A DNA stretch of 54,904 nt from a virus: IMG/VR virus record IMGVR_UViG_3300047172_000041, positions 1-54,904 of that record. One strand, given 5' to 3'. Positions 1 to 54,904 of this stretch are shown one piece after another. The translations under genes and the position numbers were made by a program. How positions within the stretch are numbered: the stretch's first letter is position 1; the number at the start of each line of letters is the position of its first letter. The notes under the pieces were generated by a model. It ran no database searches, had not been told where the DNA came from, and worked only from the letters and a program-made list of their open reading frames with translations.

Positions 1-179
1 TCGGCCTGCGCCGAGGCTGGCAGTGTCTTGCACGCGGCCCATTCCCAATCGAATGCGGATGCGTGTTCAATCAGATCAGGCTTAATATCGACGCTATCGC
101 CAAAAAGTTCGCGGAACTTTTCGCGCTGGTCGGCGCAGGCGCGCAAGGCAATCAATTGCTGATAGGTAATGGCGCTCAT
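1..179 (-). CDS. Hendecad-repeat family protein, N-terminal part (cut by window start)
   Basis: This is the first 59 codons of one member of the repeat-protein family that fills both window ends. It starts MSAITYQQLIALRACADQ and has the family N-terminal domain (ACADQ..KFRELFGDS, then FDWEW and KTLPASAQAE). The ATG overlaps the TGA of the upstream copy as ATGA, so translation is probably coupled. The reading frame continues exactly into the partial copy at the right edge (54587-54904), which carries the repeat tail. The two pieces are therefore probably one gene. Function is unknown. Confidence 0.75.
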   Translation of the reverse strand, partial: MSAITYQQLIALRACADQREKFRELFGDSVDIKPDLIEHASAFDWEWAACKTLPASAQA

Positions 180-676
180 TTGCAGTGCTCCATATGAAGC
201 CGAAGGAACGCCTCAGCGCATACGCGCTCGAACTCGGCCAGCGCCGCGCTGCGCACGCGCTCGAACTCGGCCCATGCCAGGGCGCGCACGCGCTTGAACT
301 CGGCCTGCGCCGGGGCGATCACGCGCTCGTACTCGGCCCCTGCCAGGGCGCGCACGCGCTTGGACCCGGCCCGCGCCGGGGCAATCACGCGCTCGGACTC
401 GGCCCATTCCGGGGCGATCACGCGCTCGTACTCGGCCTGCGCCGCGCTGCGCACGCGCTCGTACTCGGCCTGCGCCGGGGCGCGCACGCGCTCGAACTCG
501 GCTCGCGCCGCGCTGCGCACGCGCTCGTACTCGGCCCGCGCCTCAGCGCATACGCGCTTGAACTCGGCCAGCCCCGGCGCGATTTCCACGCTATCGCCAA
601 AAAGTTCGCGGAACTTTTCGAGCTGATCGGCGCAAGCGCCCATATCAACTATCTGCTGGTAGGTAATAACGCTCAT
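176..676 (-). CDS. Hendecad-repeat family protein (copy 2)
   Basis: This 166-residue protein has a conserved N-terminal domain of about 35 residues (ITYQQIVDMGACADQLEKF, then FRELFGDSVEIAPGL). About ten 11-residue units follow, of the form AEYERVRSAAQ, AEFERVRAPAQ or AEYERVIAPEW, and it ends with the family tail CAEAFLRLHMEHCK. The 11-residue period and the alternation of Glu/Arg with Ala suggest a long hendecad helix or coiled coil. This copy lacks the FDWxW stretch seen in most of its sisters. It overlaps its neighbours by ATGA on both sides. Similar small proteins of unknown function occur in other phages; no role is assigned here. Confidence 0.8.
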   Translation of the reverse strand: MSVITYQQIVDMGACADQLEKFRELFGDSVEIAPGLAEFKRVCAEARAEYERVRSAARAEFERVRAPAQAEYERVRSAAQAEYERVIAPEWAESERVIAPARAGSKRVRALAGAEYERVIAPAQAEFKRVRALAWAEFERVRSAALAEFERVCAEAFLRLHMEHCK

Positions 677-1206
677 TTGCAGTGCTCCATATGAAGTCGC
701 AGAAACGCCTCAGCGCATACGCGCTTGAACTCGGCCAGCGCCGCATCACGCACGCGGTCGAACTCGGCCAGCGCCAGGGCAATCACGCGCTCGGACTCGG
801 CCAGCGCCGCATCACGCACGCGGTCGAACTCGGCCAGCGCCAGGGCAATCACGCGCTCGGACTCGGCCAGCGCCGCATCACGCACGCGATCGAACTCGGC
901 CTGCGCCGCGTCATACACGCGCTTGAACTCGGCCCACGCCGCGTCACGCACGCGATCGGCTCGCGCCAGCGCCGGGGCAATCACGCGCTCGGACTCGGCC
1001 AGCGCCGCATCACGCACGCGGTCGAACTCGGCCAGCGCCGGGGCTGGCAGTGTCTTGTGCGCGATCCATTCCCAGTCGAATGTGGATGCGTGTTCGATCA
1101 GCTCAGGCTTAATATCGGTGCTATCGCCGAACAGATCGCGAAACTTTTCGCGCTGGTCGCGGCAGGCGCGCAAGGCAACCAATTGCTGGTAGGTAATGGT
1201 GCTCAC
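673..1206 (-). CDS. Hendecad-repeat family protein (copy 1, first gene of the leftward operon)
   Basis: This is a 177-residue member of the family and the first gene after the promoter at 1250-1277. It starts at GTG with an AGGAG about 8 bases upstream. The N-terminal domain is complete (ACRDQREKFRDLFGDSTDI, then FDWEWIAHKTLPAPA). About ten 11-residue units follow, such as AEFDRVRDAAL and AESERVIALAL, then the tail FLRLHMEHCK. A 66-bp block (two units) is repeated in tandem within it. It overlaps copy 2 by ATGA. Function is unknown. Confidence 0.8.
   Translation of the reverse strand: MSTITYQQLVALRACRDQREKFRDLFGDSTDIKPELIEHASTFDWEWIAHKTLPAPALAEFDRVRDAALAESERVIAPALARADRVRDAAWAEFKRVYDAAQAEFDRVRDAALAESERVIALALAEFDRVRDAALAESERVIALALAEFDRVRDAALAEFKRVCAEAFLRLHMEHCK
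733..890. repeat. 66-bp tandem repeat inside copy 1
   Basis: The block that includes cgcggtcgaactcgg (753) and ctcggactcgg recurs 66 bp later (819). It encodes two 11-residue units, so the duplication keeps the reading frame. It shows how these genes grow by whole 33-bp units. Confidence 0.8.
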
Positions 1207-1249: not shown

Positions 1250-1277
1250 ATTCTACCGGGGGGTGCAAACCTGTCAA
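1250..1277 (-). promoter_or_regulatory. Strong sigma70-type promoter for the leftward repeat-gene operon
   Basis: Read on the minus strand there is TTGACA (1277-1272), a 16-base spacer and TAGAAT (1255-1250). This is a perfect -35 box and a 5/6 -10 box. Transcription would start near 1243 and run into the GTG at 1206. All following genes through the window junction and down to about 49212 lie on the same strand with overlapping starts and stops, so this promoter may serve the whole operon. Confidence 0.75.
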
Positions 1278-8566: not shown

Positions 8567-10218
8567 TGGGCCTGCTTTCGAAATTGCCGAGTGGGCTCGA
8601 GGACGCGGAGGCGCTGCTGCGCCGCCGGCAGTCGGCCAACACGAAGCGCGAACTGTGGCGTGCGCTATACCGCGACGCCTACCTGTACGCGATGCCGTCG
8701 CGCGAGACGTTCACGTGGCACACTGAAGGGCAGTACCGGAACAACCGGCTGTTCGACTCGACGCTGCAGGAAGCGACGTACACCGCGGCGAACACGTTGT
8801 GCGCGCTGCTCTTCCCGAGCTGGGTGGAGTGGGTGCAGCTTGCTCCTGGCGCCTCGCTGACGCCGGACGTGCTCGAGCAGCACCCGGAGATCATTGACGG
8901 CCTGCAGAAGGCGACGAAGACGTTCTTCCACTACCTGAACGCTTCCAACTTCAACACGGTCATCAGCGAAGCTGCACTGGACCTGCAAGTGGGCACAGCC
9001 GCGATCACGTTCGATGAGGGTGACAGCGACAGCCCGTTCATATTCGAGTCAGTGCCGACATCGTGCCTTGAGTTGGAGAACGGTCCGAACGGCATCATCG
9101 AGACAACGTTCATGGAGCGCAAGCCCGAGGCGCGCAATCTGCTGCGCCTGTATCCGGGGCTTGAGCTGTTCGATCTGCCGGAAGCAACGCAGAAGCTCGT
9201 AAAGGATTCGCCGGAGACGAAAGTCTCGGTCATCCAGTGCGAGATCTACGACCCGGAGACGAAAAAGTATTACGGGGTCGTACTGGATCTGAGCGGCCCG
9301 ACGATCATCTGGCGGTACGACTTCGGCGTCAGCAACCCAATGATCGTGGCGCGCGCGTCGAAGACTGCGGGCGAGACCTACGGCCGCGGCCGAGTGCTGC
9401 TGGCGCTGGCCGATGCCCGGACGCTCGATCGTATGCAGGAGTTTGTGCTGTCGCAGGCGGCCCTGTCTATCGCCCCGCCGATGACCGGCGTGAGCGACGG
9501 CGTGCTGAACCCGTACACAGCCAGCCTGACGCCGAACACGATCATCCCGGTGGCCAGCAATGCGGACGGCTCGCCGTCGCTGCGGCCGATCCAGCTGGGG
9601 CAGAACTTTTCGATCACGGAACAGATGATGAAGGATCTGCGCGAGCGCGTACGGCGCACGCTACTGGGTCCCGAGCCGAGCGAAGGCCCGGTGAAGAGCG
9701 CGACCGAGATCAGCATCGCGGATCGCAACCGGCTGTGGGCGATGAACGGCGAGTACACGCGCATCCAGGCGGAGCTGCTCGACAAGATTGTCAAGCGCGG
9801 CGTCTACATCCTCGGCAAGAAGGGGTTGATGCCGAAGCTGAAGATCGATGGCAAGTCAGTGACCGTAAAGTACGTGTCGCCGTTCGCCACGACGCAGAAC
9901 GCGAACGACCTGTTGTCGTTGCAGAAGACGGTACAGACGCTGAACGAGTTCGGCCCGCAGATCGGCCAGTCGATGATTAGTACCGGCTTGAAGGTTAAGG
10001 ACGTACCCGCGTACGTCGCACGGTTGAACGGCGTTCCCGAGAAGCTGGTCATGACCGACGCCGACAAGCAGGAGCTGGTGCAGCAGGGCTTGCAAGCCCA
10101 GCAAATGCAGCAGCAGAACGAAGTGGCGCACACCGGGAACCTCGCCGCGGCGCAAGCCCAGGGCGAAGCAGGGCCGCCACAGCAGCAAGGCGGACCGTCG
10201 CCGGTACCCGCGCAGTGA
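8566..10218 (+). CDS. Portal / head-tail connector protein
   Basis: This 550-residue protein matches T7 gp8-type connectors in length (T7: 536) and style. It has an N-terminal helical region with RESFTWH-like features (PSRETFTWHTEGQYRNNRLF), then TYTAANTLCALLFPSWVEWV and a Gln-rich C-terminus. Twelve copies would form the vertex through which DNA enters and leaves. It follows the terminase genes and precedes the scaffold and capsid. Its TGA overlaps the first base of the tRNA gene. Confidence 0.9.
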   Translation: MGLLSKLPSGLEDAEALLRRRQSANTKRELWRALYRDAYLYAMPSRETFTWHTEGQYRNNRLFDSTLQEATYTAANTLCALLFPSWVEWVQLAPGASLTPDVLEQHPEIIDGLQKATKTFFHYLNASNFNTVISEAALDLQVGTAAITFDEGDSDSPFIFESVPTSCLELENGPNGIIETTFMERKPEARNLLRLYPGLELFDLPEATQKLVKDSPETKVSVIQCEIYDPETKKYYGVVLDLSGPTIIWRYDFGVSNPMIVARASKTAGETYGRGRVLLALADARTLDRMQEFVLSQAALSIAPPMTGVSDGVLNPYTASLTPNTIIPVASNADGSPSLRPIQLGQNFSITEQMMKDLRERVRRTLLGPEPSEGPVKSATEISIADRNRLWAMNGEYTRIQAELLDKIVKRGVYILGKKGLMPKLKIDGKSVTVKYVSPFATTQNANDLLSLQKTVQTLNEFGPQIGQSMISTGLKVKDVPAYVARLNGVPEKLVMTDADKQELVQQGLQAQQMQQQNEVAHTGNLAAAQAQGEAGPPQQQGGPSPVPAQ

Positions 10219-10287
10219 CGCCGTTCGTCTAGCGGCCAGGACCCGACATTGTAGTCGGAAACGCGGGTTCGAGTCCCGCACGGCGTT
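10218..10287 (+). tRNA. tRNA-like gene with a short anticodon loop
   Basis: The acceptor arms acgccgt and acggcgt pair perfectly. The D arm gtct/ggac and the T arm gcggg-ttcgagt-cccgc are normal. The anticodon stem ccgac/gtcgg also pairs perfectly but encloses only six bases (attgta), and base 26 is missing, giving about 70 nt. If the usual U33 rule is applied the anticodon would be TGT (Thr), but TTG or GTA cannot be excluded. No CCA is encoded. It could be a functional odd tRNA, a processing mark between portal and scaffold transcripts, or a decayed gene. Confidence 0.75.
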
Positions 10288-10305
10288 TTCAGGGGGAGAA
10301 GCGGA

Positions 10306-48688: not shown

Positions 48689-48988
48689 GTGAAGATATAT
48701 ACACAACGGCAATTACTTGAGAAAGCCATTGAACGCACCGAAGGCACCTACACCGACTTGGCCAGGCAGCTAGGCGTGACGCGCCAAGCGATTAGCCAGT
48801 TCAAGTACGGAACACCGATGTCGGTTGAACTGGCGGTAAAATTCTCGAAGCTGCTGCCTGACTACAGTCCGGAGTTTATCGTGGCCTGCATTCAATACCA
48901 CGCGGCTGCGCGACTGGAACAACCGGAGGCTGTGCGCGTATGGGAGAAGATCGTCAGATTGGTGTCGAAAGAAGCGAAGGCCGCCTGA
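48689..48988 (+). CDS. HTH regulator (Cro/CI or YdaS-like)
   Basis: The gene starts at GTG and gives 99 residues. The HTH is clear at about residues 23-44: LARQLGVTRQAISQFKYGTP. A helical C-terminal half follows (VELAVKFSKLLPDYSPEFIV) and a charged tail. It resembles YdaS/Cro-type one-domain regulators. It is the only plus-strand gene in a leftward region and lies opposite the replication operon, the classic layout for the lysogeny repressor or Cro. Confidence 0.78.
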   Translation: MKIYTQRQLLEKAIERTEGTYTDLARQLGVTRQAISQFKYGTPMSVELAVKFSKLLPDYSPEFIVACIQYHAAARLEQPEAVRVWEKIVRLVSKEAKAA

Positions 48989-49036
48989 CGCACGATAACG
49001 TTTGACGTGTTACCGTGTGCCCGGCGGTTATGGCCC

Positions 49037-49260
49037 AACGGCCGGGTATAGCTACCCGAGGAAACGCCCGTAGCTTTTGGCCACGGAAGCCAGCCAATAA
49101 AACGCCGCTCTACTCGTCTAGCCAGTCGCCATTGCCCGAACGGCCGGGTATAGCTACCCGAGGAAACGCCCGTAGCTTTTGGCCACGGAAGCCAGCCAAT
49201 AAAACGCCGCTCTACTCGTCTAGCCAGTCGCCATTGCCCGAACGGCCGGGTATAGCTACC
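49037..49260. repeat. 102-bp direct repeat, two copies plus a 20-bp third
   Basis: Copies start at 49037 and 49139 (aacggccgggtatagctacc), and a third short match starts at 49241. The repeat carries the last codons of the gene at 49212 (IPGRSGNGDWLDE), so the first two copies look like duplicated 3' ends of that gene. The 49003-49211 stretch holds no other gene. Confidence 0.85.
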
Positions 49261-49433
49261 GGCCGGGCGTCGGCCAGGACATGCGTGAGCTGTGCGTGAC
49301 ACGTGGCCGACAGCATCGCGAACTCGCGCTGCAGCTGTTCATCCGTGGCACTTTCAGCGGCTTGTATCGTGAGGCGCTCTAGCGCATCGACCGCCTTGGC
49401 CGATAGCTGAAAATTGAAATCAACGTATCTCAT
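49212..49433 (-). CDS. Small protein ending in a PGRS-DWLDE tag
   Basis: This 73-residue protein, MRYVDFNFQLSAKAVDALER, is helical and acidic, then ends PVAIPGRSGNGDWLDE. The last part is encoded by the 102-bp repeat unit. The DWLDE end recalls the DDWLD motif of the packaging proteins. It overlaps the next upstream gene by ATGA. Function is unknown. Confidence 0.6.
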   Translation of the reverse strand: MRYVDFNFQLSAKAVDALERLTIQAAESATDEQLQREFAMLSATCHAQLTHVLADARPVAIPGRSGNGDWLDE

Positions 49434-49606
49434 TCGGGCCAGTCCTCCGCGATAGGCGAACGGCCGGGTACGGCTACCGGTTCATCCGCTGAACGGCCGG
49501 GTACAGCTACATCATGCGCTCGACAGTGCCCGTGAGGCACGCACAACGCCAGCCATTGCCTGTCATCGTGGCAGCAGCCGCACGGCAGGTATTGCTTAGC
49601 GCTCAC
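49430..49606 (-). CDS. Small Cys/His protein with two PGRS tags
   Basis: The GTG at 49606 (GGAGG eight bases upstream) is preferred over 49615. It gives 58 residues: MSAKQYLPCGCCHDDRQWLA. A zinc-ribbon-like cluster CGCCHD...CVPHGHCRAH is followed by two copies of VAVPGRS, each encoded by the gaacggccgggta element also found in the neighbouring repeat. Ends AEDWPE. Not recognised. Confidence 0.58.
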   Translation of the reverse strand: MSAKQYLPCGCCHDDRQWLALCVPHGHCRAHDVAVPGRSADEPVAVPGRSPIAEDWPE

Positions 49607-49691
49607 GATCGCCACCCTCCGTGGCTACCAGAAAACCTAGCACCACGATGATGCACAGCAGCACCAGAATGATCTTAACGAAAGCGCCCAT
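49596..49691 (-). CDS. Tiny membrane protein, 31 residues
   Basis: The product reads MGAFVKIILVLLCIIVVLGF and then a short acidic/basic tail (LVATEGGDRER). It is one membrane helix, preceded by aaggagaggcatcgtt. It overlaps its downstream neighbour slightly. Such tiny membrane proteins are common in phage early regions; function unknown. Confidence 0.5.
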   Translation of the reverse strand: MGAFVKIILVLLCIIVVLGFLVATEGGDRER

Positions 49692-49901: not shown

Positions 49902-50203
49902 GGCTGCGGAGCCTCCACTGTGTAGTAACCGATGCGCGCGCCGTAGCGGCGCGGAAAGAAGGCACGGCGCGGGATGACGTGCTGTGTCCCTGAATCGAAC
50001 TCCGTGCCGCGTGGCCAGCCATTACGCACGGCAGTAGTCTTTATACGAGCGCTGCTGGCGCTCCCCGGAGCCCCGGATTCACCGCGTATCGAGAGCACGC
50101 GGCACGGAATGACGCCAGTGCCGGAATCGTAATAAGCGAGGCATCCAACACGTAGAACGGGCCGCGCGGCGTCGCTTGACGCTGTTTTGTCCGCGAGCGT
50201 CAT
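49898..50203 (-). CDS. Hypothetical protein
   Basis: This 101-residue protein, MTLADKTASSDAARPVLRVG, has beta-rich CLAYYDSGTGVIPCRVLSIR and a basic C-terminal half (PRRAFFPRRYGARIGYYTVE). The SH3-like pattern is only suggestive. It overlaps neighbours by ATGA. Not recognised. Confidence 0.55.
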   Translation of the reverse strand: MTLADKTASSDAARPVLRVGCLAYYDSGTGVIPCRVLSIRGESGAPGSASSARIKTTAVRNGWPRGTEFDSGTQHVIPRRAFFPRRYGARIGYYTVEAPQP

Positions 50204-50535
50204 GGTTGGTTCTCCTCAATGTTATCGCGTATGTCGCCGCAAGCAATCCAAAGCAGTCGGCTTAAGTTTGCCTCGTGATCCGCACGCTCTAAATCGTCCC
50301 AAGCGCCGTACTCTTTTAGCTCATCAGAAACTAGCGCTTCATCTAGCGCATCTAACTGTGCCTGGATGTAGGGAGCCCGCCGAAGCCACTCAATATCATC
50401 ATCGCAAGCGCCCGAATGGCAGCCGCTCAAGGCATCGGCGCGACCAATTTGCAATTCGATAAGGCCGCTGGAAGTACCCCACCATTCAGAATCCGCAGGC
50501 AAAGACAGCGGTGGTAGCGTTAATTCGTGGTTCAT
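50200..50535 (-). CDS. Acidic hypothetical protein
   Basis: This 111-residue protein, MNHELTLPPLSLPADSEWWG, has an acidic, helical second half (YIQAQLDALDEALVSDELKE; WIACGDIRDNIEENQP). Strong acidity recalls DNA-mimic or anti-host proteins, but no family is recognised. It overlaps the next gene. Confidence 0.55.
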   Translation of the reverse strand: MNHELTLPPLSLPADSEWWGTSSGLIELQIGRADALSGCHSGACDDDIEWLRRAPYIQAQLDALDEALVSDELKEYGAWDDLERADHEANLSRLLWIACGDIRDNIEENQP

Positions 50536-50705
50536 TACTGAGATACCTCTACGTAGTATTCATCGGTCTTTTCGTCGTACTCGGCGCCGCACTCAATTAG
50601 CCAGCAATCGCCGTCCCAGCGTTTCCTAGCGTTCGGGCATCCGGTTTCGTGGCAGAAAATGCCGTTAATCATCGCCGCTTCGCATTGGTCGCATTTGATG
50701 TTCAT
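50535..50705 (-). CDS. Zinc-ribbon small protein
   Basis: The ATG at 50705 overlaps the previous stop and gives 56 residues: MNIKCDQCEAAMINGIFCHE. The cysteine pattern CDQC...FCHETGCPNAR and a later Cys (DCWLIECGAEYDE) suggest one or two zinc knuckles. Small proteins with CxxC..CHExGCPN are seen in other phages. Function is unknown. Confidence 0.62.
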   Translation of the reverse strand: MNIKCDQCEAAMINGIFCHETGCPNARKRWDGDCWLIECGAEYDEKTDEYYVEVSQ

Positions 50706-51061
50706 GCGTGCACCCAATACGCCACGCCGTCAAAATCGACGAGCATATAATCGTGCTGCAATTCGCGTGCAGCCTGATCCCAGTCGATGCATGTGTAAGG
50801 CCAGCAAGCATCGGCTTTAATAAGGCCGGTATCCTCCGCGAGCTGCGCGGCGTACTCTTTAAAGTAAGAGCCTCGAATTAGCACCTCGCCGTAGCGCCAA
50901 TCTGGGGAGCCTGATGCTTCTTCCGCAAGCGCTTCGAGCGCTGCCAGCTCGTGCGCATCTTCTGCGGATAGGCTGTCGCGGTTCGCGCGCAATTCGGCGA
51001 TACGTGCTATCACGTCCCGCGAATCGATGATGGCGTCGAAGTTACCGATAGTATTTGACAT
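50702..51061 (-). CDS. Phage/plasmid early-region protein
   Basis: This 119-residue protein, MSNTIGNFDAIIDSRDVIAR, continues DSLSAEDAHELAALEALAEE and then WRYGEVLIRGSYFKEYAAQL, CWPYTCIDWDQAARELQHDY, MLVDFDGVAYWVHA. The family pattern (IIDSRDVIxRIxxL, then CIDWxxAAxxLxxDYxxVDFDG) is one I associate with phages and plasmids of proteobacteria. No activity is known to me. Confidence 0.68.
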   Translation of the reverse strand: MSNTIGNFDAIIDSRDVIARIAELRANRDSLSAEDAHELAALEALAEEASGSPDWRYGEVLIRGSYFKEYAAQLAEDTGLIKADACWPYTCIDWDQAARELQHDYMLVDFDGVAYWVHA

Positions 51062-51087
51062 GGCTAAATCCTCCTATGGCCGAATGA

Positions 51088-51300
51088 TTAGCGGTGACGC
51101 CAGCCCTTGACGCTGGCGTAGAGCCCGCTGATGTAATCCTGCACAGCGTGCCCGTCGATGTATTCGATGACGCGCGGTGCTGCGAGCTGGCGCGCGCGTG
51201 CAAACGCGCGGGCACTTTCAACGGTCGGAAAATACAGCACACCGTCGCGCACTTTGACGTCCTGGCTCGCGTTCCAGTTCTCAAACGTATGGGCATTCAT
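51088..51300 (-). CDS. Small hypothetical protein
   Basis: This 70-residue protein, MNAHTFENWNASQDVKVRDG, continues VLYFPTVESARAFARARQLA and PRVIEYIDGHAVQDYISGLY. The beta-alpha-beta pattern with an AFARAR helix is regular. It overlaps the next upstream gene by ATGA. Not recognised. Confidence 0.55.
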   Translation of the reverse strand: MNAHTFENWNASQDVKVRDGVLYFPTVESARAFARARQLAAPRVIEYIDGHAVQDYISGLYASVKGWRHR

Positions 51301-51485
51301 TTGTTCACCTCGCGGTTCCAGCGTTCAATCTGTGCGATAGCGGCACGCTTGATGCTGTCATCATCCCGGCGCTGTTGCGCGCGCCGTAGCGCAGCCTGTG
51401 TTTCCGTTTCACCGTTGCCCGAATCGAATGCGAGAAAAAACGGAATCGAAAGCACAAGCGCGCCGATGACTTGTAGGAAAATCAT
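51297..51485 (-). CDS. Small membrane-anchored protein
   Basis: The ATG at 51485 overlaps the previous copy's stop and gives 62 residues: MIFLQVIGALVLSIPFFLAF. One N-terminal helix is followed by a charged helical domain (TETQAALRRAQQRRDDDSIK). Not recognised. Confidence 0.55.
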   Translation of the reverse strand: MIFLQVIGALVLSIPFFLAFDSGNGETETQAALRRAQQRRDDDSIKRAAIAQIERWNREVNK

Positions 51486-51949
51486 TTGCAATACTCCATG
51501 TGAAGCCGAAGAAACGCCTCAGCGCATGCGCGCTTGAACTCGGCTCGCGCCGCGCACTTCACGCGGTTGAATTCGGCCAGCGCCGCGCGGCGCACGCGCT
51601 CGTACTCGGCCAGCGCCAGGGCAATCACGCGGTTGAACTCGGCTCGCGCCGCGCACTTCACGCGGTTGAATTCGGCCAGCGCCGCGTAACGCGCGCGCTC
51701 GTACTCGGCCAGCGCCAAGGCAATCACGCGCTCGTACTCGGCCCGCGCCGCGCGGCGCACGCGGTTGAACTCGGCCAGCGCCGGGGCTGGCAGTGTCTTG
51801 TACGCGACCCATTCCCAGTCGAATGTGGATGCGTGCCGGGCCAGCTCAGGCTTAATATCGGTGCTCTCACCGGCCAGCTTGCGAAATTTTTCGCGCTGTC
51901 TGCGGCAGGCGCCCATATCAACTAACTGCTGGTAGGTGATGGCTCTCAT
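51482..51949 (-). CDS. Hendecad-repeat family protein (copy 8, last of the chain)
   Basis: The ATG at 51949 gives 155 residues. The N-terminal domain is ITYQQLVDMGACRRQREKFR, then KLAGESTDI and FDWEWVAYKTLPAPA. Eight or nine 11-residue units follow (AEYERVIALAL; AEFNRVKCAAR), then the tail FLRLHMEYCK. Here the usual FGDS reads AGES. Cys residues occur in some repeat units, unlike other copies. It overlaps copy 7 by ATGA. Confidence 0.78.
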   Translation of the reverse strand: MRAITYQQLVDMGACRRQREKFRKLAGESTDIKPELARHASTFDWEWVAYKTLPAPALAEFNRVRRAARAEYERVIALALAEYERARYAALAEFNRVKCAARAEFNRVIALALAEYERVRRAALAEFNRVKCAARAEFKRACAEAFLRLHMEYCK

Positions 51950-52644
51950 TTGCAATACTCCATGTGAAGCCGAAGAATCGCCTCAGCGCATTCGCGCTCG
52001 TACTCGGCCTGCGCCGCATCACGCTCGCGCTCGTACTCGGCTCGCGCCGGGGCAATCACGCGCTCGTACTCGGCCTGCGCCGCGCGGCGCACGCGGTTGA
52101 ACTCGGCCCATGCCGGGGCGCGCACGCGCTCGTACTCGGCCTGCGCCGAGTCACGCACGCGCTTGAACTCGGCCCATGCCGGGGCGGTCACGCGCTTGAA
52201 CTCGACCCGTGCCAGGGCGCGCACGTGCTCGAACTCGGCCAGCGCCGCGCCACGCACGCGCATGAACTCGGCCAGCGCCGAGTCACGCGCGCGCTTGAAC
52301 TCGGCCTGCGCCGGGGCAATCACGCGCTCGTACTCGGCCTGCGCCGAGTCACGCACGCGCTTGAACTCGGCCCATGCCGGGGCGGTCACGCGCTTGAACT
52401 CGACCCATGCCAGGGCGCGCACGTGCTCGAACTCGGCCAGCGCCGCGCCACGCACGCGCATGAACTCGGCCCGTGCCGGGGCTGGCAGTGTCTTACGCGC
52501 GATCCAGTCCCAGTCGAATGTGGATGCGTGCCGGGCCAGCCCCGGCGCGATTTCCACGCTATCGCCAAAAAGTTCGCGAAATTTTTCGCGCTGTCTGCGG
52601 CAGGCGCGCGAGGCAACCAATTGCTGATAGGTAATGGTGCTCAT
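51946..52644 (-). CDS. Hendecad-repeat family protein (copy 7, longest)
   Basis: This is the longest copy at 232 residues: MSTITYQQLVASRACRRQRE, FRELFGDSVEIAPGL, FDWDWIARKTLPAPA. About fifteen 11-residue units follow. A 198-bp segment (six units) is present twice in near-identical form (52127-52270 and 52325-52468), which explains its length. The tail reads ILRLHMEYCK. ATGA overlaps on both sides. Confidence 0.8.
   Translation of the reverse strand: MSTITYQQLVASRACRRQREKFRELFGDSVEIAPGLARHASTFDWDWIARKTLPAPARAEFMRVRGAALAEFEHVRALAWVEFKRVTAPAWAEFKRVRDSAQAEYERVIAPAQAEFKRARDSALAEFMRVRGAALAEFEHVRALARVEFKRVTAPAWAEFKRVRDSAQAEYERVRAPAWAEFNRVRRAAQAEYERVIAPARAEYERERDAAQAEYERECAEAILRLHMEYCK
52127..52468. 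repeat. 198-bp internal duplication in copy 7
   Basis: The segment with ctgcgccgagtcacgcacgc starts at 52141 and again at 52339, 198 bp later, which is six 33-bp units. Over about 140 bases the two copies differ by a single visible change (cccgtgcc versus cccatgcc). This points to a recent in-frame duplication. Confidence 0.85.
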
Positions 52645-53141
52645 TTGCAATACTCCATGTGAAGCCGAAGAAACGCCTCAGCGCATACGCGCTCGTACTC
52701 GGCCTGCGCCGCATCACGCTCGCGCTCGTACTCGGCTCGCGCCGGGGCAATCACGCGCTCGTACTCGGCCCATGCCGGGGCGCGCACGCGCTCGTACTCG
52801 GCCCATGCCGGGGCGCGCACGCGCTTGAACTCGGCCTGCGCCGCGTCATACACGCGCTTGAACTCGGCCCATTCCGGGGCGATCACGCGCTTGAACTCGG
52901 CCCATGCCAGGGCAATCACGCGCTCGGACTCGGCCTGCGCCGAGCCACGCACGCGCTTGAACTCGGCCAGCCCCGGCGCTGGCAGTGTCTTGCGCGCGAT
53001 CCAGGCCCAGTCGAATGTGGATGCGTGTTCGATCAGCTCAGGCTTAATATCGGTGCTATCGCCGAACAGATCGCGAAACTTTTCGAGCTGATCGGCGCAA
53101 GCGCCCAAGGCAACTAACTGCCGGTAGGTAATGGTGCTCAT
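52641..53141 (-). CDS. Hendecad-repeat family protein (copy 6)
   Basis: The ATG at 53141 overlaps the stop of a tiny upstream ORF and gives 166 residues: MSTITYRQLVALGACADQLE, FRDLFGDSTDI, FDWAWIARKTLPAPG. Nine to ten units follow (AEFKRVYDAAQ; AEYERVRAPAW), then FLRLHMEYCK. Function is unknown, as for its sisters. Confidence 0.8.
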   Translation of the reverse strand: MSTITYRQLVALGACADQLEKFRDLFGDSTDIKPELIEHASTFDWAWIARKTLPAPGLAEFKRVRGSAQAESERVIALAWAEFKRVIAPEWAEFKRVYDAAQAEFKRVRAPAWAEYERVRAPAWAEYERVIAPARAEYERERDAAQAEYERVCAEAFLRLHMEYCK

Positions 53142-53266
53142 TTGAAATCTCCCGGCCATGCGCCTAGATGAATCACGCACTGATACCGAATGCGTGAGCG
53201 CAGGCAGCGCACGGCTATGCGGATGCTACGTTTGACGACTGATTCGAACATGTGCGAGCGCTCCAT
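53138..53266 (-). CDS. Possible tiny basic protein, 42 residues
   Basis: The frame reads MERSHMFESVVKRSIRIAVR and then CLRSRIRYQCVIHLGAWPGD. Its TGA overlaps the ATG of copy 6, the same coupling seen along the operon. No clear Shine-Dalgarno is visible. It may serve only to bring ribosomes to copy 6. Confidence 0.4.
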   Translation of the reverse strand: MERSHMFESVVKRSIRIAVRCLRSRIRYQCVIHLGAWPGDFK

Positions 53267-53285
53267 TAATCAAAGGAATGGTGGA

Positions 53286-53501
53286 CTACAGGGCAACATC
53301 GAACGGCTCAAGCGTGATCATCAGATAATCCGGATGAGTGACTACCATGCGCTCAGACTGCTCCAACGCATCTGCGTGCGAACCCGCAACGATGACCTGG
53401 GAGAATGTCCGGCCGTTCAAACGTGTAACCGTCAATTTGTAAGATTTGAGCATGATCGGCGCCTGTACCGGCAGTTCGGTTCGCTTATCAACGTACAACA
53501 T
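53286..53501 (-). CDS. Unrelated small protein inside the repeat-gene chain
   Basis: This 71-residue protein, MLYVDKRTELPVQAPIMLKS, has a beta-alpha pattern (YKLTVTRLNGRTFSQVIVAG, then HADALEQSERM). An aggagcgaacc precedes the ATG. It is the only gene in the chain that lacks the repeat family domain and may be an older resident of the operon. Not recognised. Confidence 0.62.
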   Translation of the reverse strand: MLYVDKRTELPVQAPIMLKSYKLTVTRLNGRTFSQVIVAGSHADALEQSERMVVTHPDYLMITLEPFDVAL

Positions 53502-54126
53502 GGTTCGCTCCTAAGTGCGTGTTGCCTGAGCAATACTCCGTATGAAGCCGCAGAAACGCCTCCGCGCATACGCGCTCGAACTCGGCCCACGCCGCATCAC
53601 GCTCGCGCTCGAACTTGGCCCACGCCGCATTACGCACGCGCATGAACTCGGCCCGTGCCGGGGCTGGCAGTGTCTTGCGCGCGATCCAATCCCAGTCGAA
53701 CGCGGACGCGTATTCGATCAGCTCAGGCTTAATATCGGTGCTATCGCCAAAAAGTTCGCGGAACTTTTCGAGCTGATCGGCGCAAGCGCCCATATCAGCT
53801 AGCTGCTGGTAGGTAATGGTGCTCACGGTTCGCTGCTCCATATGAAGCCGCAGAAATGTCCCGGCCCATACGCGCTCGAACTCGGCCCATTCCGGGGCGA
53901 TCACGCGCTCGTACTCGGCCTGCGCCGCGCTGCGCACGCGCTCGAACTCGGCCTGCGCCGAGGCTGGCAGTGTCTTGCGCGCGATCCAATCCCAATCGAA
54001 TGTGGATGCGTATTCGGCCAGCTCAGGCTTAATATCGGTGCTATCGCCAAAAAGTTCGCGGAACTTTTCGAGCTGATCGGCGCAAGCGCCTAAGGCAACC
54101 AATTGCTGATAGGTAATGTCGCTCAT
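53488..54126 (-). CDS. Hendecad-repeat family protein, two copies fused (copies 4 and 5)
   Basis: The ATG at 54126 gives 212 residues with two N-terminal domains in one frame. The first (MSDITYQQLVALGACADQLE; FDWDWIARKTLPASA) has three units and ends FLRLHMEQRT. With no stop it runs straight into VSTITYQQLADMGACADQLE and a second domain with three units. The junction still carries a GTG with ggagcagcgaacc upstream, so the second half may also be made alone. The C-terminus is altered (HTEYCSGNTHLGANHVVR). Confidence 0.78.
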   Translation of the reverse strand: MSDITYQQLVALGACADQLEKFRELFGDSTDIKPELAEYASTFDWDWIARKTLPASAQAEFERVRSAAQAEYERVIAPEWAEFERVWAGTFLRLHMEQRTVSTITYQQLADMGACADQLEKFRELFGDSTDIKPELIEYASAFDWDWIARKTLPAPARAEFMRVRNAAWAKFERERDAAWAEFERVCAEAFLRLHTEYCSGNTHLGANHVVR

Positions 54127-54590
54127 TTGCAATACTCCATATGAAGCCGAAGGAACGCCTCAGCGCATACGCGTTCGAACTCGGCCAGCGCCGCATCACG
54201 CTCGCGCTCGTACTCGGCCCATGCCAGGGCGCGCACGCGTTCGAACTTGGCCAGCGCCGGGGCGATCACGCGCTCGTACTCGGCCCCTGCCGGGGCGATC
54301 ACGCGCTCGTACTCGGCCTCTGCCGGGGCGATCACGCGCTCGAACTCGGCTCGCGCCGCGCTGCGCACGCGCTCGTACTCGGCCCATGCCGGGGCGGTCG
54401 CGCGCATGAACTCGGCCAGCCCCGGCGCTGGCAGTGCCTTGCGCGCGAGCCGATCCCAATCGAACGCGGATGCGTATTCGGCCAGCCCCGGCGCGATTTC
54501 CACGCTATCGCCAAAAAGTTCGCGGAACTTTTCGAGCTGATCGGCGCAAGCGCCCATGTCCGCCAATTGCTGATAGGTAATGTCGCTCAT
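54123..54590 (-). CDS. Hendecad-repeat family protein (copy 3)
   Basis: This 155-residue protein, MSDITYQQLADMGACADQLE, continues FRELFGDSVEIAPGL and FDWDRLARKALPAPG (Arg replaces the second Trp). About nine units follow (AEYERVIAPAG; AKFERVRALAW), then FLRLHMEYCK. It overlaps its neighbours by ATGA. Confidence 0.8.
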   Translation of the reverse strand: MSDITYQQLADMGACADQLEKFRELFGDSVEIAPGLAEYASAFDWDRLARKALPAPGLAEFMRATAPAWAEYERVRSAARAEFERVIAPAEAEYERVIAPAGAEYERVIAPALAKFERVRALAWAEYERERDAALAEFERVCAEAFLRLHMEYCK

Positions 54591-54904
54591 TTGCAGTGCT
54601 CCATATGAAGTCGCAGAAACGCCTCAGCGCATACGCGCTTGAACTCGGCCAGCGCCGGGGCGCGCACGCGCACGTACTCGGCCCATGCCGCGTCGCGCAC
54701 GCGCACGAACTCGGCCAGCGCCACATCATACACGCGCTCGGACTCGGCCCATGCCGGGGCGCGCACGCGCTTGAACTCGGCCAGCGCCGGGGCGATCACG
54801 CGCTCGTACTCGGCCCATTCCGGGGCGATCACGCGCTCGTACTCGGCCTGCGCCGCGCTGCGCACGCGCTCGAACTCGGCCTGCGCCGAGGCTGGCAGGG
54901 GCTT
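54587..54904 (-). CDS. Hendecad-repeat family protein, C-terminal part (cut by window end)
   Basis: An open frame of 106 codons to the window edge reads KPLPASAQAEFERV, eight to nine 11-residue units (AEYERVIAPEW; AEFVRVRDAAW) and the tail FLRLHMEHCK. The edge lies in the same place as the left-edge partial copy, so 1-179 plus this part would make one gene of about 160 residues in a circular molecule. Confidence 0.75.
   Translation of the reverse strand, partial: KPLPASAQAEFERVRSAAQAEYERVIAPEWAEYERVIAPALAEFKRVRAPAWAESERVYDVALAEFVRVRDAAWAEYVRVRAPALAEFKRVCAEAFLRLHMEHCK

Follow-up and report, generated by a model that had tools for sequence, protein, structure and literature searches.

TALE and PPR proteins carry hypervariable residues at fixed positions of repeats whose scaffold is invariant, and diversity-generating retroelements introduce amino-acid variation through bases 1 and 2 of codons, with the third bases remaining fixed. 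The array of paralogous genes described here is carried by an uncultivated virus with podovirus-type genes (IMG/VR record IMGVR_UViG_3300047172_000041, the 54,904 nt of which were analyzed as a whole and are referred to as the window), and its products combine a head domain with a rod of 11-residue (hendecad) repeats. The likeness of these proteins to TALE and PPR lies in repeat design, TALE and PPR being built of helix pairs and the array proteins of a single helix with an 11-residue period. Unlike diversity-generating retroelements, the array varies over all units, and a search of the window and 11 other contigs, some of which are short fragments, gave no reverse transcriptase (PF00078), whereas the control genomes were positive. 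Scy of Streptomyces has a similar 11-residue helical periodicity, but its profile matches the array proteins weakly and far below the cut-off, and it shares with them neither the head nor the genomic context, the match reflecting composition. Among phage proteins, hypotheticals with an AC-type head and an Ala/Tyr-rich tail, such as AZF89938.1 of Methanosarcina virus MetMV, resemble the window proteins in having a related head and a low-complexity helical tail of variable length, although these tails are of the AAYAA type rather than hendecads and no array was seen (copies were not counted). Conversely, other hendecad phage proteins (loci L134, L137, L144, L147, and L156, and loci L139, L146, and L155) have the same 11-residue rod but differ in the sequence of the head; two heads lie in a single stretch of L155, and in most loci with other heads the window-type profile detected one or none.

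Our reading of the locus as a whole, to which we assign a probability of roughly 45%, is that it constitutes an early-operon array of self-chaining cassettes, in which a common head would be combined with a diversifying recognition stripe directed against a changing partner. The heads would share one effector or anchor function, and the helices would pair into multivalent rods, the variable stripe of which would recognize a variable partner, most likely a host defense or takeover target or a protein of a rival phage. By making many variants early, the phage could spread its bet over variants of the partner. The conserved head and diversifying rod, the early position, the recurrent expansion, and the repeats fit early recognition proteins engaged in an arms race. 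Given that phage genomes are compact, it is unusual for a nine-copy family to head an early operon and to have expanded separately in several lineages. The combination of a conserved head with a rod surface that varies more than silent sites do is what would be expected of an arms-race recognition protein and indicates where the partner should be sought.

Conserved heads and variable rod surfaces

The presence of nine N-terminal domains in eight minus-strand frames, as reported in the original prediction, was confirmed, the frame divided between the two contig ends being included in the count; all nine heads match the head profile, with E values of 1e-15 to 7e-27. The head, a conserved domain of ~50 residues, is under purifying selection, with a ratio of nonsynonymous to synonymous substitution rates (dN/dS) of 0.45 for the nine window heads in the sense frame, whereas the five remaining frames gave values of 0.57 to 1.38. 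It is on this ground that the minus-strand frames are taken to be the genes, whereas the long plus-strand open reading frames (ORFs) opposite them, by-products of the GC-rich repeats, were rejected as coding. The head is not uniform in all copies, as had been claimed, because the copy at 176-676 lacks the half containing FDWxW. The heads also look mosaic: over 174 nt, the biallelic sites require no fewer than 12 incompatible intervals, and compatibility between neighboring sites exceeds that after shuffling (permutation p 0.0005). The copies recombine with each other.

Between copies, the array heads differ by 8-29% at the DNA level, and independent assemblies show this architecture again, with frames and overlaps intact, so it is extremely improbable that the array arose by misjoining of only one or two real genes during assembly, although the window, G002, G020, G021, G046, and other contigs do break inside the array, making the number and order of copies near the junction uncertain.

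The rods consist of strict 33-nt units, with block duplications, and the number of units changes in whole units, such that six of the eight window protein lengths listed equal 1 modulo 11. Aligned by unit, the repeats have the consensus AxAxAEYxRVx (positions 1-11). With 98 degrees per residue, arithmetic places the core residues V10, A3, and Y7 at 164, 196, and 229 degrees, respectively; positions 11, 4, and 8 fall at 262, 295, and 327 degrees, forming one stripe, and position 2 falls at 98 degrees. The 11-residue period, the 3-4-4 spacing of the apolar core (Y7, V10, and A3), and the long helices in the structural model are those of a hendecad coiled coil. In that model, obtained with AlphaFold2 for one 177-aa copy (mean pLDDT 96), a small beta-alpha head is followed by two long antiparallel helices; the model is of a monomer, and the hairpin may be a monomer artefact, repetitive helices being easily modeled with excessive confidence. 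Modeled alone, the head reached a pLDDT of 80. No PDB counterpart of the head was found among the chains compared, and its weak viral matches are uncharacterized proteins. The PDB matches of the rod were many unrelated helical hairpins, from which no identity was taken.

Variation within the rods is concentrated at particular codons. Across ten phages, bases 1 and 2 of codons 2, 4, 8, and 11 were commonly polymorphic (minor fraction 0.2 or more) at 52 of 80 sites, compared with 12/140 such sites in the other codons and 3/51 fourfold sites. In hold-out loci, fetched afterwards with a repeat-only pattern and including two (L139 and L143) that carry the same protein, the corresponding figures were 27/64 at codons 2, 4, 8, and 11 and 3/49 at fourfold sites (p 1e-5). 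The 28 units of G029 represent 24 forms, and synonymous variation among them is almost absent. The contrast is milder in the window, where nonsynonymous diversity (pi-N) at these codons is 0.44 and synonymous diversity (pi-S) 0.27. Hence, hypervariable residues occupy fixed positions of a constant repeat, and because amino-acid variation exceeds silent variation, either diversifying selection or a directed mutational process has to be invoked, relaxed constraint alone being insufficient. The suggestion that the family is under diversifying selection thus holds for the rod surface but not for the head.

A directed process, such as targeted mutagenesis by a diversity-generating retroelement, would create the variable codons whatever the role of the protein, and the restriction of changes to codon bases 1 and 2, with third bases fixed, resembles its signature. 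This origin is nonetheless very unlikely, given that the window and the 11 other contigs, fragments included, yielded no reverse transcriptase, that all units of all copies vary, and that the palettes are restricted, base 1 of codon 4, for example, being either T or C in G020, G029, and G044. An unlikely explanation that still deserves real weight is that the variable residues beside the helix core determine which rods pair with each other, so that the array would yield a defined hetero-oligomeric scaffold and not a collection of binders. R or K is frequent at position 11, which borders the core on the side facing away from the invariant E6, and the copies of one phage span isoelectric points from 4.8 to 9.8 and net charges from -11 to +11, as for complementary partners; however, positions 4, 8, and 2 are equally variable at a greater distance from the core on the wheel, the number of copies is not the same in all phages, and some phages have a single one.

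Several points weigh against diversifying recognition by the rods. Variation of the rod could also serve pairing among the paralogs. Codons 2, 4, 8, and 11 were picked after part of the data had been seen, and when the contrast between amino-acid and fourfold sites is taken over all codons, p is 2e-4 for the initial set, 0.07 for the hold-out, and 2e-5 for the two combined, these and the other rod p-values being guides, as units of the same phage arose by duplication and the phages themselves are related. Many contigs have a single copy, and the array is therefore not essential; a relative of the window, G007 (78% identity by the head-tail connector), spans the syntenic interval without any copy. 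A more specific version of the recognition model, in which residues 2, 4, 8, and 11 would be shown from an invariant scaffold and chains of units would be built, shuffled, and lengthened to track a polymorphic target, appears rather doubtful, and to our knowledge, modular recognition rods of this kind have no described phage counterpart.

Distribution of the family and kinship of the head

Relatives were found with a codon pattern for AC..Q...F...FG, which revealed the family in about 35 other IMG/VR contigs of uncultivated phages. Owing to the divergence of the window branch, the window's own heads retrieved nothing from viral or genome contigs, and the looser codon pattern succeeded. The window has nine copies, G034 has 10, G020 eight, G030 four, and G021, G029, and G044 three each, several contigs have two, and most have one; these counts are approximate, as heads cut by a contig end or split in one frame were included and many contigs break inside the array. 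Rods range from ~2 to 25 hendecads across the family, and comparison of array size among relatives, as advised in the original prediction, therefore did not reveal single copies of constant length. The copies of the window, G034, G020, G030, and G029 form one well-supported group per phage, reflecting separate expansions or copies kept alike by gene conversion. Expansion of the gene family, which had been proposed from the window alone, is thereby upheld, with within-phage clades, 1 to 10 copies per contig, and none in the close relative G007. That the same kind of array was built in several phage lineages suggests an arms race with a partner.

The array is accessory. In another relative, G002 (83% identity by the head-tail connector), the contig ends inside a family member. 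A serine-recombinase-like gene (MKVIGYVRVSTQDQ...; L047:3436-4098) is located in the syntenic accessory interval of G007.

A scan of 84,980 bacterial and archaeal genomes with the head pattern did not detect the family, and two matches in Bacteroidota metagenome-assembled genomes were attributed to chance; nor was it found in plasmids. Among 50,697 phage records, it was not found except for a distant trio in the cultured Synechococcus phage MinM2, where three consecutive small genes related to the head lie between DUF3150 and VWA-like genes (L010:1133-2159). MinM2 first scored at the noise level and was later recognized as a distant relative by the head profile; no other cultured phage showed any trace of the family. 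Pfam, PHROGs, PADLOC, and NCBIfam yielded only weak helical-composition matches, none at a curated cut-off where one exists, and the DEDDh, Scy, and FloT matches of the array proteins were treated as composition. The family is thus described in none of Pfam, PHROGs, and NCBIfam as searched, and searches of the literature, confined to open-licence papers, found no description of it. In one copy, the head has an overlapping match (E 1e-4) to a PHROGs family, phrog_13026, which other copies match weakly and which may be a distant relative.

In profile comparisons with hhalign, the window-type head was related at 92% to the heads of the phage hypotheticals with AAYAA tails and at 98% to a second hendecad-bearing head type (L139, L146, and L155), with 0 of 150 column-shuffled controls coming close. 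A third type, RGDWLEWLL (L134, L137, L144, L147, and L156), also bears hendecads and was related at 90% to the AAYAA heads but at only 9% to the window-type heads, to which it is linked through the AAYAA group and not directly. Judging from these profiles, the head belongs to a broad, uncharacterized "AC-head" superfamily of phages (L...AC......F/W ... DW), no characterized member of which was found, and the hendecad rod appears to be a module grafted onto several of its heads. The same rod occurs on other heads (e.g., ...GACRESLKWQ...RGDWLEWLL) at L133, L134, L135, L137, L144, L147, L153, and L156, and is best regarded as a putative portable module among uncultivated phages. The window proteins did not match Pfam Imm5_like (PF21805), and the AAYAA relatives scored ~16 of 25 bits, below the cut-off.

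Operon position and self-chaining tails

The array forms the beginning of the operon that runs divergently from the terminase gene in five phages: the window, G029, G030, G034, and G046. PHROGs identified the terminase of the window, L060, and L062, and similarity to these proteins identified that of L066 and L079. At L056, L058, L069, L083, and L089, genes for DNA polymerase, primase, or exonuclease lie close to the family members. The genes that are transcribed first in a phage are often ones acting on the host. A place among the first genes divergent from terminase would suit an anti-defense or host-takeover protein, and, as far as gene order is a guide, an early, host-facing role fits the start-of-operon position in the five phages; action as decoys or multivalent inhibitors of a host defense, as suggested in the original prediction, is a hypothetical form of such a role.

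A promoter-like site, TTGACA-16-TAGAAT (1250..1277, minus strand; 11 of 12 matches), precedes the first start by about 44 nt. Within 2.7 kb, three sites scored at least 9/12, compared with 0.9 expected, and this is the only strong one before the array; no strong site of this type was present in 50000-54904. The earlier inference of one strong promoter is accordingly borne out by sequence likeness. Upstream of the array promoter, at 1408-1532, a 51-bp unit containing CATACCGCATA is present as two exact repeats and a partial third.

The common tail LRLHMEYCK that had been noted is present, but it is largely the coding shadow of the Shine-Dalgarno site of the next gene: the peptide is encoded by CTTCGGCTTCATATGGAGTATTGCAAATGA, in which GGAG is located eight bases before an ATG overlapping the gene's own stop. 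Other phages have different tail peptides and the same signal, namely STENQS (acGGAGaaccaatcATGA), AEGGK (gcGGAGggtgggaaGTGA), and KRGASA (agaGGAGcaagcgcGTGA). GGAG occurs in 27 of 41 family gene ends, compared with 46 of 213 other ORF ends (p 6e-8), the control being a rough one of mechanical ORFs, and the tail of the last copy supplies the start signal of an unrelated gene. Each gene may therefore be viewed as a putative self-chaining cassette bearing the start signal of whatever comes next. Because the tail carries the start signal of the next gene, gain or loss of a copy would be harmless to the operon, which would explain how an array can grow inside an operon without breaking it.

The fused gene at 53488..54126 shows one recombination event directly: its normal tail, CATATGGAG, runs on as CAGCGAACCGTGAGCACC, the leader and start of the first gene, with the join at the shared GGAG, and the internal GTG at 53826 is preceded by GGAGCAGCGAACC, which is the leader of copy 1. 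Such events, together with the 33-nt units, block duplications, mosaic heads, and self-coupling tails, would allow growth without selection for variety, and the array might be the product of tandem recombination and harmless duplication through the tail, extra copies at most raising the dose of one protein. This neutral or dosage explanation is unlikely but has a nonnegligible chance of being correct; the frames and heads are maintained, as the dN/dS of 0.45 indicates, drift does not generate an excess of amino-acid over silent polymorphism, and separate expansions occurred in several phages.

Gene order across the contig ends

The array sits at the divergence point of the two operons of the window, the plus strand encoding a head-tail connector, a T7-type tail fiber match, and an internal virion protein, and the minus strand carrying DNA polymerase and helicase or primase genes. 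From this point, the copies, all on the minus strand, run leftward across the contig ends to 51482 and are followed by small genes and then by the replication genes. Copy 1 (673..1206; 177 aa) has a GTG start with its own AGGAG leader, and copy 2 (176..676; 166 aa) is the one from which the second half of the head has been deleted. The 5' part of copy 3 (1..179) continues at 54904 in its 3' part (54587..54904) if the contig ends join; the joined product is in phase and 155 aa long. The ends overlap imperfectly, by 29 nt with two mismatches (27/29 matching, 23 exact), and the chain across the junction, as originally proposed, is plausible but not proven.

Copy 4 (54123..54590; 155 aa) is followed by copies 5 and 6, the in-frame fusion of two modules mentioned above (212 aa), and then by an unrelated 71-aa ORF without a family match (53286..53501, minus strand), which breaks the chain before copy 7 (52641..53141; 166 aa). 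Copy 8 (51946..52644; 232 aa) has the longest single rod, about 15 hendecads, and copy 9 (51482..51949; 155 aa) couples through its tail to an unrelated 62-aa ORF with a hydrophobic N-terminus and no family match (51297..51485, minus strand). The ATGA overlaps described in the original prediction are present, the chain being interrupted by the unrelated 71-aa ORF. The likely start codons are the ATGs inside the ATGA overlaps (51949, 52644, and 54126) and that at 53141, slightly downstream of the mechanical ORF starts.

Elsewhere in the window, a tRNA-like gene (10217-10288; anticodon undetermined by ARAGORN) lies directly 3' of the head-tail connector gene. At 48892-49615, VAIPGRS and SYTRPFGQWRLARR recur as short stretches in several overlapping ORFs, which suggests another dispersed repeat in the early region.

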